Source of the DNA: an uncultured Paracoccaceae bacterium
Lineage (GTDB): Bacteria; Pseudomonadota; Alphaproteobacteria; Rhodobacterales; Rhodobacteraceae
Direction: 5' to 3'
Length of the DNA stretch: 64,000 nt
Assembly: GCA_947495795.1 (NCBI GenBank)
Contig: CANMAI010000001.1
Span: forward strand, 682,001 to 746,000
Under the pieces are notes generated by a model. The model did no database searches, was not told the DNA's origin, and was given only the letters and a program-made list of their open reading frames with translations. Shown in pieces: positions 18,263-23,711 of the stretch (position 1 is the first letter of the stretch; each line of letters opens with the position of its first letter). The position numbers and the translations under genes were made by a program.

Positions 18263-18379
18263 AGCGGTATGGATTGGCTCGATTTTGTTAATTGCAATAC
18301 CTGAGCGCTGATACACTGCCAGCGCTGCTCTTGTCTCCATCCCGCGTTTCTGCCTCTATCACGCGAGGAGGACGGGACA

Positions 18380-19501
18380 ATGAAACGGGCAATCACATTG
18401 GGCGGCGGCGGACCAGCAGCGGGGCTGCATCTCGGCGCACTCAAATGCTTCAGAGATCACGGGATCGAGTTTGATGTCTGGGCACTCTCGTGCATCGGCG
18501 TCTGGGTCGGTGCGCACTACAACAGCTACCCCAAGGAGACGGCACCCGAGCAAACGATTGATCACTTCCGCAAATACATATTTCGCGATGATATTTCTTA
18601 CGACAAGTTCCCGATAACGCCAGGTTTTGTACCCGACATACAGCGCAATACAGAAGCGCTGATCCGATATATGTTCGACCCGCAAAGCTACCGAAACCTT
18701 GCGGCACCCATTGCTACACAACAAGCTGTCGCCGCGCTGCAAACCTACATGTCTGATCCGAAATACTGGAACCCGCATGCCTTTGCAGAGCTTGCAACAA
18801 CGATGGCAGCGGCCAACCCGATTACTCGGTTCATGACATCCATGATATGGAAATCGGAGATGAAGGGCATGACAGGCGGTGCCCACAAAGGCCCCGGCCT
18901 TTCGACTGGTTTGGATATCAAGAAGCTTTTTGAGCCGGAGAGGCCTTTCCTCTACCACAATGCATGGAACATGACCGATGACCAGATCGAGCTTTTCGCC
19001 AACCGGGTAAAACCACCACCCCACATGCAACAGATGACATCAGATAGCATGCGCGCCTGCTCGGCCCTGCCGTTTATCATCGAACCGGTTGAGTTCAACG
19101 GCAAATCCTATTGCGAAGGTGCCCTTGTGCGCACCGTTTCCTTCACTGATCTGATAGAAGATCACCCGGAACTGGAGGAGGTCTGGGTGATCCGCATCGT
19201 TGATCCAAAACAAATCCGCCCACCCGAGAACATGGATGACGCGATGAACAATCTTTGCATGCTCTTCGCGGGTTCGCTCGGTGAAAGCAATGTTGAGGAG
19301 TTTGAGGAGCATGTGAAGAACGACCCCAAGCTTAAGGACCGCATCCGGATCCGTATCGTACCCGTCAGCCATGACATCAACTATGATTGGAACCACTCTA
19401 ACCTCGATCGCGGGATCGAGCAGGGCTATGCGTTCACACTCGCAGAGATCGAAAAATACAACGCAGAGCAGGCGAAGCCTGCCAGGCGGCGCAGAAAATG
19501 A
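18380..19501 (+). CDS. Patatin-like protein with altered catalytic dyad
   Basis: A 373-residue cytosolic protein with the patatin fold signature: AITLGGGGPAAGLHLGALKCF is the oxyanion region at the N-terminus, followed by the nucleophile elbow. Where patatins have GxSxG, this protein has LSCIG, placing C38 at the serine position, and where the dyad Asp sits in DGG/A it has E246 in YCEGALVRTV. Both catalytic positions are therefore substituted, though by residues that could still act as a Cys/Glu pair. Patatins hydrolyse acyl esters of lipids (or storage polyesters). RBS GAGGAGG lies just upstream of ATG 18380. The stop overlaps the next gene's start as ATGA, so the two products are probably made together. 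Confidence 0.8.
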   Translation: MKRAITLGGGGPAAGLHLGALKCFRDHGIEFDVWALSCIGVWVGAHYNSYPKETAPEQTIDHFRKYIFRDDISYDKFPITPGFVPDIQRNTEALIRYMFDPQSYRNLAAPIATQQAVAALQTYMSDPKYWNPHAFAELATTMAAANPITRFMTSMIWKSEMKGMTGGAHKGPGLSTGLDIKKLFEPERPFLYHNAWNMTDDQIELFANRVKPPPHMQQMTSDSMRACSALPFIIEPVEFNGKSYCEGALVRTVSFTDLIEDHPELEEVWVIRIVDPKQIRPPENMDDAMNNLCMLFAGSLGESNVEEFEEHVKNDPKLKDRIRIRIVPVSHDINYDWNHSNLDRGIEQGYAFTLAEIEKYNAEQAKPARRRRK

Positions 19502-20340
19502 TGCCCCGCACGGCGGATTACCGGATAGTCTGGATATTCGGCCTTATTGTCGGCCCCGCCATCCTTGTAGGTATAGAACTTTTTCACCCCGCGGGTTTCA
19601 CGCAAAATCCGGGCATGTTCACTTTCCTGCGCCAGCCAGAACCGGGCGGCCATTCGCATTCCGCGTTAGATTATTTCGGCCCGGATTGGTGGTTCTGGCT
19701 CCATATGATCCAGACACCCACGGTCTGCCTCACCGCTATCGCGCTTATGCTCACGGTTTCCACAGTACAAAGCGAGGCCGCACCAAATGCAGCAGTCACC
19801 GCCCTTTCTTGGGGCGCGCACGGGGCTCTCTTCGTCTTTGCCGTCTACTATACTGCGCTTGATGCCATTGGTGGCATCGGTCTCGGTCGCACGCTGGAGA
19901 TCACAAACAACCTCCAAGCCGCGACAGCGTATTTTGAAGGTGGCTCGATCATCCAATGCATGGATGCGGCGGGCAATTCAGCACCCTGCCTTAGCTCCGA
20001 GCAGGTGGATGGTGTGGCACTTGTGCTGAATGAGACATGGACTGATCCATGGGTGGGTGGCGTCGGCTCCTACATCTCGCAGACGGGCTCCTGGGCCATT
20101 TTCATTGCTACAGTTCTGACAGCGCTTACGATACTTACGGCTCGTGCGTTCCGCACAAGCACCGTCAGTTGGCTCGCAATCGTATGCCTCGTGGCGGGAG
20201 GATGGTTTGTTCAGGAAAGCCACGCTTGCTGTACAGGCCCTCTCGGCTTTGGGCTGATATGCCTCTTCGGATGCCTCGGCTGGTGGGAGTCAGGGGATTC
20301 GGCCGCGCACCAAACCGTTGATGCAGAAAAACAACCCTAG
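19498..20340 (+). CDS. Hypothetical membrane protein coupled to the patatin-like gene
   Basis: A 280-residue protein that I do not recognise. Hydrophobic segments at about 10-30, 65-90, 102-125, 200-220, 223-240 and 248-265 predict five or six membrane helices. A loop around 45-60 is rich in His, Pro and Gly, and a stretch near 150-175 has two cysteines (CMDAAGNSAPCLSS) that could form a periplasmic disulfide; a further CC pair lies in ESHACCTGPLG. The start overlaps the patatin-like stop (ATGA), so a joint function at the membrane is plausible. No transporter or enzyme signature is visible. Confidence 0.72.
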   Translation: MMPRTADYRIVWIFGLIVGPAILVGIELFHPAGFTQNPGMFTFLRQPEPGGHSHSALDYFGPDWWFWLHMIQTPTVCLTAIALMLTVSTVQSEAAPNAAVTALSWGAHGALFVFAVYYTALDAIGGIGLGRTLEITNNLQAATAYFEGGSIIQCMDAAGNSAPCLSSEQVDGVALVLNETWTDPWVGGVGSYISQTGSWAIFIATVLTALTILTARAFRTSTVSWLAIVCLVAGGWFVQESHACCTGPLGFGLICLFGCLGWWESGDSAAHQTVDAEKQP

Positions 20341-20426: not shown

Positions 20427-23400
20427 TTGGGGAATACTGTTCGCACATGGCTTGCGAGCCTCGATCTGGCGCATCTCGAAAGTCTTTTCGAGGAGCATCA
20501 GATTGATCTGCGCGATCTCCCTCTGCTTTCCAATGATGACCTTAAGGAGCTTGGTATTCCCCTCGGTCCTCGCCGCCGGATACTGAATGCAATAGCGCCA
20601 AATAAGGCGTCACAGGTTCCAACCGTGGCTTCAACTGTTCCACTGGCTGAGGCGGAGCGCCGCCAGTTGACTGTAATGTTTATAGATCTCGTGGGTTCCA
20701 CAGCTCTTTCCGCCCGTCTGGATCCGGAGGATATGCGCGATGTGATCCGCGGCTTTCAGGATGCCTGCGCAGGCGTGATCACCCGATATGATGGCCACGT
20801 GGCTGAGTATATGGGGGATGGCATTCTCGCCTATTTTGGTTGGCCGCGTGCACATGAGGATGAGGCAGAGAGGGCGGGCCGTGCTGGCCTGGAGGTCGTG
20901 AATACCATTGCCAACCTCCAGACACGTGCCGGTGTGGCCCTTCAGGTGCGTGTCGGTATAGCCACAGGGCTTGTAGTGGTGGGCGATCTCATAAGCGAAA
21001 GCGGGGCACGCAAGAATTCCGCCACTGGTGCCACGCCTAATCTCGCCTCGCGGTTACAAACGCTGGCAGAGCCCGGAACGGTCGTTATCGCTGCAGTCAC
21101 TGCTCAGCTCATCGGCAAAGCTCTTCAGATGAGGAGCCTGGGTCCTCAACTTCTCAAGGGCCTGCCCGGCTCTGCGGAAGTCTTTCGGATCACGGGAGAG
21201 CCTGAAAGTGTGAGCCGGTTTGAGGCGCGCTTTGGCCAAGCCGACCTTCCGATGGTGGGGCGAGAGACAGATCTGGCGCTTCTTCTCGAATGTTGGAAAC
21301 TTTCGCGAGATGGCAAAGGGCAAGCCGTGCTGCTTAGTGGTGAGGCAGGAATCGGGAAGTCGCGGATCAGCAAAGCACTCACAGATATCGTAGCGCCGAA
21401 GGAAGGCACTGTCCTGCGTCTCCAGTGCTCGCCCTACCATACGGACAGTGCACTCTGGCCGGTCATTCAGTACCTCCGCCATGCTGCAGGCCTTTTGCGT
21501 GGCGAACCGACGCGCACACAGCGCGAAAAGGTTCAAGCTTTGGTGGAAGCGGCAGGCTTGCGACATGAAGGAGCAGAATCACTTCTTGCCAGTCTAATCG
21601 GGTTGGAGGCACCTACTGAGGCTCCGGGTATCAGCCCGGCTGTAAGGCGCAAACGCACGATGGAAGTGCTGAAAGCGCAACTTCTCAATCTCGCGTCGCA
21701 AAAACCCGTGCTTATGCTCATAGAGGATATCCACTGGATTGATCCCACCACGCATGAACTAATCACTCTTTGGTTGGAAGAGATTGCAGCGGCTAACGTT
21801 CTTCTAGTTGTCACCAGCCGACCCGAGCCACAGCCGAAGCTTGATGCCTATCCACATCTCACCCATATGGAGCTGAGCCGTCTACGTCCAGATGCTGGCC
21901 GATCTATGGTGGCGAGCCTTGCTGGCAACGGATTGCCGCCTGAGACGGTGGAGGCCATCATAACGCGCACAGATGGTGTGCCACTCTTCGTGGAAGAACT
22001 TACGAAAGCCATCATGGAAACCGGAGAGGCGAGTATTCCGGCGTCCCTACAGGATACGTTGATGGCCCGCCTCGATCAGTTTCACGATGTCAAAGAGATC
22101 GCCCAGACAGCCGCAGCCATAGGAAGGGAATTCAGCCTTCGTCTCCTCCGTGCTGTCAGCACCAAATCGGAGGCAGAGCTGCAGTCCTCGCTCGGCAAGC
22201 TTGCTGCGGCCGAAATAATATTTCCCTTCGGCGATGTGGATGATCCGCAATTCAGCTTCAAGCACGCGTTAGTGCTTGATGCTGCTTATCAGTCTCTACT
22301 GAAATCGCGTCGGCAATCCCTGCACTCCCGCATCTTCGAAACGCTGAAGACGGCCTTTCCCGAAATGGCCGAACACCAGCCAGAACTTTTGGCGCATCAT
22401 GCTGCCGAAGCACATATGCCCCAACTGTCTGCGCTCTATGGCCGCTATGCGGCAGAGCAGGCAATGAAGAAGTCCGCCAATCTTGAGGCCATCGGTCACT
22501 ACACGCGTGCACTCGCCCAACTCGCACTCTGCCCCGCCACAGTGGAGCGTACATCCGAAGAGCTTGATCTTCAACTTGGCCTCGGTGTCGCCTCGATCCT
22601 TCCCAAAAGCCACGGCTCCGACGATGTGCGCCGGGCTTTTACGCGGGCGGAGGCATTGAGTGCCGAACTGGGTGATACGCCCCGCCATTTCCGGGCACTA
22701 CGCGGCCTTTGGCACTGGCACTCCGTCAGCGCTGATTTTCAGGAAGCCGCGCTCCTCGCAGGGCAACTTGCCAACCTCGCCAATCATTCCGGCGAACCTG
22801 CGCGGCGACTTATGGCCCACCGGATCATGGGTTATACTCAGATGACGTTGGGCGCTTACGAGGGCGCGCGGAAAGACTTCAACACCGCCCTCGCGTTGTA
22901 TCAACCGGACGAGCAGTCCGAATATGTCCGCACCCACGGGGAAGACCCAGGACTCTGGTGCTATGCTTATCTTTCATGGGTTGAAGACTGGCTCGGTAAC
23001 CGCGATCAGGCCTTGGAGTGGAGTGAAAAAGGTGTAGCACTCGCCCGTGATCTGCCAAACCGCTACAGCCGCAGTTTCTCGCTTGGCCTCGCGGCCTACC
23101 TGCATCGTTGGCGCGGTGATCCAGCAGCGACACTCAGTGCTGCAGAGGAGGCAGGGGAGAGTGCCCGGGAGCAGGGCGTCGCACAATTCGGGGCCTGGGC
23201 AGATGTACTTGGCGGATGGGCCGTTGCGGCGAGCGGCGACATAGGCGCAGGGCTTAGACAGGCCGAAAGCGGTTTTGCCACATGGTGCGCCCTCGGCCTC
23301 ATTCATGTGCAATGGCGCCATCAGATCCTGCTCGCGGATATCCACCGCATGGCAGGCGATTACGAACTGGCCCTCGCTCGCATCTCAGAAGCTGAAAAAC

Positions 23401-23711
23401 GTATCAATCCGGCCAGTATCGGTCTTGGCATTGCTGATTTCCATCTGATGAAGGGCACACTCCTTGTTGATGCCGGGGAGGTGCAGGCAGGTGAGCAGTC
23501 TCTGCTTTACGCCATGAAGCTTGCCCAAGATCAGAAGGCCACCCTCTTTGAGCTTCGCGCCGCGACGGGCCTTGCACGCCTCTGGGGAAAACGTAACAGG
23601 CATGATGCCGCGGCGGCCCTGCTTTCTCCGTTTCAAACCCGCATCAAGGAAGGTAAAAATACATCCGACTATCAGGCGGCCGAAACGGTCCTGCTTCAAC
23701 TCGCCTGTTAG
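20427..23711 (+). CDS. SAM domain / class III cyclase / AAA-type ATPase / TPR signalling protein
   Basis: A 1094-residue multidomain protein. Residues 3-55 form a SAM domain (LAHLESLFEEHQIDLRDL). Residues about 75-250 form a class III nucleotidyl cyclase: metal Asp D87 in MFIDLVGS, second metal site in EYMGDGILAYFG, and the Asn/Arg pair in TPNLASRL, so it looks catalytically competent. A P-loop follows (GEAGIGKS, about 305-312) with Walker B VLMLIEDIHWID, the AAA_16-type module of adenylate cyclase/LuxR-like regulators. From about 600 on are TPR-like repeats. The start is TTG at 20427, with GGAGG five bases upstream; an in-frame ATG at 20409 runs straight into a stop. Product (cAMP most likely) is inferred. 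No membrane segment. Confidence 0.88.
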   Translation: MGNTVRTWLASLDLAHLESLFEEHQIDLRDLPLLSNDDLKELGIPLGPRRRILNAIAPNKASQVPTVASTVPLAEAERRQLTVMFIDLVGSTALSARLDPEDMRDVIRGFQDACAGVITRYDGHVAEYMGDGILAYFGWPRAHEDEAERAGRAGLEVVNTIANLQTRAGVALQVRVGIATGLVVVGDLISESGARKNSATGATPNLASRLQTLAEPGTVVIAAVTAQLIGKALQMRSLGPQLLKGLPGSAEVFRITGEPESVSRFEARFGQADLPMVGRETDLALLLECWKLSRDGKGQAVLLSGEAGIGKSRISKALTDIVAPKEGTVLRLQCSPYHTDSALWPVIQYLRHAAGLLRGEPTRTQREKVQALVEAAGLRHEGAESLLASLIGLEAPTEAPGISPAVRRKRTMEVLKAQLLNLASQKPVLMLIEDIHWIDPTTHELITLWLEEIAAANVLLVVTSRPEPQPKLDAYPHLTHMELSRLRPDAGRSMVASLAGNGLPPETVEAIITRTDGVPLFVEELTKAIMETGEASIPASLQDTLMARLDQFHDVKEIAQTAAAIGREFSLRLLRAVSTKSEAELQSSLGKLAAAEIIFPFGDVDDPQFSFKHALVLDAAYQSLLKSRRQSLHSRIFETLKTAFPEMAEHQPELLAHHAAEAHMPQLSALYGRYAAEQAMKKSANLEAIGHYTRALAQLALCPATVERTSEELDLQLGLGVASILPKSHGSDDVRRAFTRAEALSAELGDTPRHFRALRGLWHWHSVSADFQEAALLAGQLANLANHSGEPARRLMAHRIMGYTQMTLGAYEGARKDFNTALALYQPDEQSEYVRTHGEDPGLWCYAYLSWVEDWLGNRDQALEWSEKGVALARDLPNRYSRSFSLGLAAYLHRWRGDPAATLSAAEEAGESAREQGVAQFGAWADVLGGWAVAASGDIGAGLRQAESGFATWCALGLIHVQWRHQILLADIHRMAGDYELALARISEAEKRINPASIGLGIADFHLMKGTLLVDAGEVQAGEQSLLYAMKLAQDQKATLFELRAATGLARLWGKRNRHDAAAALLSPFQTRIKEGKNTSDYQAAETVLLQLAC

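Follow-up and report, generated by a model that had tools for sequence, protein, structure and literature searches.

The patatin-like protein encoded in the 64,000-nucleotide stretch of DNA analysed here (the window) carries Cys and Glu at the positions of the patatin Ser/Asp dyad, which raises the question of whether the replacement is real and with which neighbouring gene the protein may work. An earlier note on this sequence had read the replacement as the mark of either a pseudoenzyme or a cysteine hydrolase, and had coupled the gene to an adjoining membrane protein gene as a possible membrane-lipid or storage-polyester system. The two reading frames and their ATGA overlap were confirmed (18380-19501, 373 aa; 19498-20340, 280 aa). 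The gene that recurs beside patatin relatives is a cyclase gene further downstream, and this neighbour suggests that the two genes make up a signalling pair not described before, and not a lipase joined to a membrane protein. The features of the locus are as follows.

18366..18371, + strand: AGGAGG, Shine-Dalgarno-like, 8 bases 5' of the patatin ATG (read directly)
18380..19501, + strand: patatin-fold protein, C-type (C38/C227/C245/E246), 373 aa (ORF, Pfam profile, predicted fold, alignment)
18491..18493, + strand: TGC codon of C38, nucleophile-elbow position (sequence, model, alignment)
19058..19060, + strand: TGC codon of C227, invariant along with C38 in C-type patatins and Asn in Ser-type patatins (alignment)
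19112..19114, + strand: TGC codon of C245, Cys in 19/23 C-type rows (alignment)
19115..19117, + strand: GAA codon of E246, dyad-Asp position (alignment)
19498..20340, + strand: membrane protein, 280 aa, ATGA overlap with the patatin gene (ORF, hydropathy)
20427..23711, + strand: 1094-aa protein with SAM, class III nucleotide cyclase, AAA_16 and TPR-like parts, read from a TTG start; its gene is the one that recurs beside patatin genes (ORF, domain profiles, neighbourhoods)

Promoter and terminator scans performed no better than on shuffled sequences.

Fold and active-site positions of the window patatin

The 373-aa protein matched the Pfam Patatin profile (PF01734) with 59.8 bits against a curated cut-off of 27.7, and PlpD was its best relative among PDB sequences. 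The AlphaFold2 model, built from 28 alignment rows, had a pLDDT of 88.6 and a pTM of 0.86. A structure search with this model returned patatin/PLA2 folds as rows 1-25, indicating the patatin alpha/beta fold, with Z scores that lay close together (CapE 23.9, PlpD 22.3, CapV 21.8 and patatin-17 21.3). In the model, residue 38 is predicted to lie between strand 33-36 and helix 39-49, in a nucleophile-elbow-like arrangement. C38 aligned on the Ser and E246 on the Asp of three Ser/Asp patatins, and this alignment revealed no other Ser-Asp pair at the catalytic site.

All three patatin signature motifs were altered in the window protein. The nucleophile motif was L-S-C-I-G (C38) instead of G-x-S-x-G, and E246-G-A stood in place of D-G-[A/G]. 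The glycine loop is given as G-G-G-x-[K/R]-G in PMC9095652, and that of the window patatin was G-G-G-P-A-A. The loop had been described as otherwise normal, a description that does not hold, as Ala13 occupied the [K/R] position in 23/23 C-type rows of the family alignment.

Nucleophile types across the family

C38, C227, H193, N208, W42 and E246 were invariant in the 23 C-type rows, in a comparison that left out the own-genome patatin (L010), which yielded no readable frame with the filter used. These conservation values rest on profile searches, as one of the two patterns used in the 37-locus genome scan described below contains SCIG and biases C38 counts. Other members with Cys and Glu at these positions, which the earlier note had suggested looking for, were found: both residues occurred at 14/14 Bradyrhizobium loci recovered with a residue-blind profile, and the patatins of genomes G079, G363 and G868 also retained them. 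C38 and E246 are not sequencing slips, as both recur at dozens of other loci and in another genome from the same genus.

Residue 36, the first Gly of G-x-S-x-G, was Leu, Met, Thr or Ser in the C-type rows. Genome G076 harbors two tandem patatins with a full G-x-S-x-G motif and Glu, in which the Ser aligned with C38; these Ser-type copies carried Gly36, Asn227 and Ala245. Gly occupied the nucleophile position in four aligned rows (L057, L013, L107 and L108), and G200 provided a fifth such locus. The nucleophile position within the family was therefore Cys (with Cys227), Ser or Gly, and Glu at 246 was constant, being kept by 29/29 aligned family rows. Positions 36, 38, 227 and 245 co-varied, as expected for parts of one pocket.

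A patatin tree of 32 rows, built without four trait columns and leaving out most Bradyrhizobium loci and G200, placed the Gly rows in one clade (99/98). The Ser copies lay among basal C-type rows, and three outgroup rows had very long branches. In the clade of C- and Ser-type proteins the nucleophile was always Cys or Ser (23 Cys and 2 Ser among 25 rows). The Gly relatives thus speak for the pseudoenzyme proposed in the earlier note, and the exclusive use of Cys or Ser in the clade of the window protein speaks for the cysteine hydrolase.

Distribution of the patatin and of the membrane gene

Among 61 related genomes, a close homologue of the patatin was found only in the window's own genome (G000) and in G002, with distant matches in three others. 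A Bradyrhizobium japonicum plasmid encodes a homologue with 39% identity. A scan of genome contigs with the single patatin sequence as query gave no match, and a second scan, for which three rows had been aligned, recovered 37 loci, most of them in Bradyrhizobium and the others in Tardiphaga, Xanthobacteraceae, Geminicoccaceae-type genomes, an Isosphaeraceae MAG, Variovorax and Aquabacterium-type genomes. The residue-blind profile matched 4/385 genomes of the class, 14/117 Bradyrhizobium genomes, 3/398 genomes of the phylum, 2/200 genomes in the family of Aquabacterium terrae and 4/31 genomes in the family of a Geminicoccaceae MAG. These low counts indicate that this patatin family is rare and patchy.

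The membrane protein had been called a six-helix partner of no known family. It showed about six hydrophobic stretches by hydropathy, and its structural model was poor (pLDDT 48.6) and lent the helix count no fold support; the absence of a known family was borne out, with no match in Pfam, NCBIfam, PADLOC or PHROGs. Its gene was present in 2/61 relatives (the own genome and G002) and in 1/367 genomes of the class, the window's own, and it was linked to the patatin gene wherever found (2/2), the genes of G002 overlapping as well. Among the loci compared, no patatin locus other than these two carried it. The membrane gene is thus an accessory of the window's genus, inserted between the patatin and cyclase genes, and its place as the defining partner passes to the cyclase gene at 20427-23711, beyond the two genes that the earlier note had covered.

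Adjacency of the patatin and cyclase genes

The cyclase gene adjoined the patatin gene at 35/37 loci of the genome scan, in convergent orientation at 30, upstream on the same strand at 4 and divergently at 1. The same neighbour was found at all 14 Bradyrhizobium loci of the residue-blind search of 117 genomes (12 convergent, 2 upstream); these loci overlap the 37-locus set, with at least four genomes shared, and are short, covering only the C-terminal part of the cyclase. The pair on the B. japonicum plasmid was convergent. In the window and G002 the cyclase gene lay downstream of the patatin gene with the membrane gene between them, and at three of the five Gly-type loci (L057, L107 and L108) it lay directly upstream. 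Retention of the pairing through four gene orders suggests selection on the pairing. Chance adjacency is negligible, given that seven Bradyrhizobium genomes held only 6-14 such cyclases each.

The median gap between the two genes, measured between stop-to-stop frames, was 50 bases at 39 linked loci, and at L057 the frames overlapped. Pairwise identities of patatins and cyclases correlated with r = 0.93 over 18 linked pairs, a value to which common descent contributes. On the patatin tree, 18 linked rows fell in a group of 20 (94/99). In our own reading of the gene clusters no other family recurred around the loci, and the remaining clusters looked like frames overlapping the patatin or cyclase genes; no gene of the supposed storage-polyester role recurred, and this part of the earlier proposal is abandoned. 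A crude motif test detected no patatin beside 8 non-linked cyclases, in 7/8 of which it recognised the cyclase itself.

Two loci carried broken patatin copies: at L049:7935-9302 the patatin next to an undamaged cyclase was split over three frames, and at L034:6089-6397 an extra patatin fragment lay upstream of an intact pair.

Sequence and phylogeny of the cyclase

The FxD, GDG and N...R motifs were present in all 39 patatin-linked cyclase rows, and we take their positions to be the two metal-binding Asp residues and the Asn/Arg transition-state pair that define a class III cyclase. The positions that presumably select the base varied among linked cyclases. As the metal and transition-state residues are kept in every linked row, the patatin-linked cyclase is probably active. 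The TPR match of the window cyclase was below the Pfam cut-off. The window and B. japonicum plasmid cyclases shared 38% identity over 1119 columns, and the best rhizobial matches to the window cyclase, proteins with the same SAM, cyclase, AAA and TPR parts, showed ~37-41% identity over most of their length, linked or not.

A tree of 18 of the 39 linked cyclases and 22 others contained one branch (support 100) in which 11/11 rows were patatin-linked, comprising Bradyrhizobium, Tardiphaga, a Xanthobacteraceae MAG and two Geminicoccaceae-type loci. The window's own pair of rows was placed elsewhere on the tree. Patatin linkage changed 3 times on the tree, and a single clade of linked cyclases was not rejected (AU p = 0.557); the linked cyclases may form one clade or several.

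In two linked cyclases (L028:4422-7982 and L048:3841-8001), CxxC-type Cys clusters, zinc-ribbon-like by eye, replaced the SAM-like N-terminus. At L109:1-3954 and L113:7699-11700, a non-linked cyclase paralogue was arranged head to head with a large protein that appeared by eye to be adenylation-domain-like. The same neighbour of a cyclase paralogue occurred in two Bradyrhizobium genomes and is perhaps another fixed partner.

Comparison with known systems

The window patatin shares its profile and fold with the patatin/PNPLA proteins (PF01734; PlpD, patatin-17) and differs from them in having Cys for Ser, Glu for Asp and Ala for the glycine-loop [K/R]. Cyclase-controlled patatin effectors are already known from CBASS, and class III cyclase-effector pairs from Pycsar. 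The CBASS patatins CapE and CapV, which have been solved with cyclic dinucleotides, were among the closest folds, tied with other patatins, and resemble the window patatin also in that their gene order couples them with a nucleotide cyclase. The window unit differs from CBASS in its much larger class III cyclase and in the Cys/Glu site of its patatin. PADLOC, run on the three-gene unit, identified no CD-NTase beside the patatin and gave no match for the patatin itself; its only hits were PycC profiles on the cyclase domain (6.8e-16), which recognise class III cyclase domains and were applied here without a cut-off.

Pycsar resembles the window unit in that a class III cyclase gene lies next to another, separate gene. 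Its effectors are PycTM and PycTIR according to PMC11224242, whereas the window unit has a patatin-fold partner and a cyclase with AAA and TPR-like parts. The patatin-cyclase pair combines parts of CBASS and Pycsar and fully fits neither definition. In the open-access literature searched, with passages of PMC11224242, PMC9095652, PMC12657218 and PMC6321122 included (most subscription papers lay outside this scope), neither the pair nor a Cys/Glu patatin was described.

Possible roles of the patatin-cyclase pair

The pairing itself is observed; its direction, chemistry and function in the cell are what we infer here. We consider it an even call that the SAM/class III cyclase/AAA/TPR protein and the Cys/Glu patatin-fold protein form a two-gene signalling pair. 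The cyclase-ATPase would act as the switch, sensing a cue through its TPR/AAA part, and once switched it would either make a cyclic nucleotide or contact the patatin directly, turning the patatin-fold protein on. The latter could be the output or the sensor of the cyclase. Its pocket may take up a lipid or acyl group, which the protein would either bind or act on; Cys38 would supply the thiol, forming an acyl-enzyme or undergoing reversible modification, and Glu246 would be the base for this thiol. The pocket of the Gly-type relatives could only bind, so what all cyclase-linked members have in common may be a binding and signalling role and not hydrolysis. For the C-type proteins, a nucleophile that is strictly Cys or Ser speaks for chemistry; the Gly-type loci show that partners of the cyclase can dispense with it.

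We also put forward, as a tentative version that we hold to be rather doubtful, a system distinct from and standing beside CBASS CapV/CapE, in which the class III cyclase/AAA/TPR switch would control a patatin that works with a thiol, by means of a cyclic mononucleotide that the patatin fold itself binds, with the nucleophile changeable among Cys, Ser and Gly and the Glu fixed. A domain profile search recognised no cyclic-nucleotide-binding domain in the window patatin.

A serious contender, if short of an even chance, is a pseudoenzyme in which the patatin fold would be a lipid or acyl sensor or a scaffold regulating the cyclase, and Cys38 and Cys227 would be structural or redox-sensing, with no hydrolysis. 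The cyclase-linked relatives with Gly38 and the loss of [K/R] and Gly36 agree with it, as does a precedent for scaffold function: according to PMC9095652, filamentation by CapV Q329R requires the glycine and D-G-[A/G] motifs and not the catalytic Ser. However, the nucleophile was Cys or Ser in all 25 rows of the C/S clade, and the presence of Gly36 in the Ser-type copies suggests that chemistry is selected there.

We regard as unlikely a CBASS/Pycsar-style anti-phage module, in which infection would lead the cyclase to make a messenger and the patatin-like effector to attack the membrane. Such a module would account for the cyclase and patatin architecture, the patchy presence (14/117 Bradyrhizobium genomes), the fold near CapE and CapV and the PycC matches, but those profiles recognise class III cyclase domains and have no cut-off here; the patatin had no PADLOC match, no defence genes recurred around the loci, and the effector nucleophile is altered. 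That the patatin and membrane proteins form the functional pair and the cyclase is incidental, as the overlapping genes in the window and G002 might suggest, is very improbable, since the membrane gene occurred only in these two genomes and a cyclase neighbour accompanies the patatin in other families as well as at Burkholderiales-type loci. An ordinary patatin lipase with neutral substitutions would explain the Pfam match and fold and is scarcely credible, given that none of the three signature motifs is intact and that the changes at residues 13, 38 and 246 were shared by every one of the 23 C-type rows.

If the two proteins of the proposed signalling pair work together, rhizobia and other proteobacteria would have a cyclase-controlled patatin system absent from the catalogues searched, and some of the many rhizobial cyclase/AAA/TPR proteins would gain a candidate target. 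The constant Glu with Ser, Cys and Gly swaps offers a natural experiment on non-hydrolytic roles of the patatin fold.

Patatin loci lacking the cyclase

In the class-wide profile search, the cyclase gene lay beside the patatin gene in 1/4 matched genomes and was absent from this position in G076, G079 and G363; the patatin of G868 also had no adjoining cyclase. Loci L014 and L018, within the linked clade, lacked it as well, and the unlinked rows of the C/S clade were basal on the patatin tree. Two Gly-type patatins directly followed a type I polyketide synthase, in Azospirillum B510 (L013:5578-6591) and G200 (L121:8707-9723). Methyl-accepting-type sensor genes adjoined the cyclase-free patatins with Glu at 246 in G076 (L058:11345-13351) and G868 (L100:7180-8901), and in G079 a sensor gene of this type, with weak similarity, lay ~350 bases from the patatin (L059:6168-7577). 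An upstream patatin fragment in G868 (L100:6700-7164) was an internal-deletion copy, in which the sequence passed directly from around residue 25 to around residue 262.
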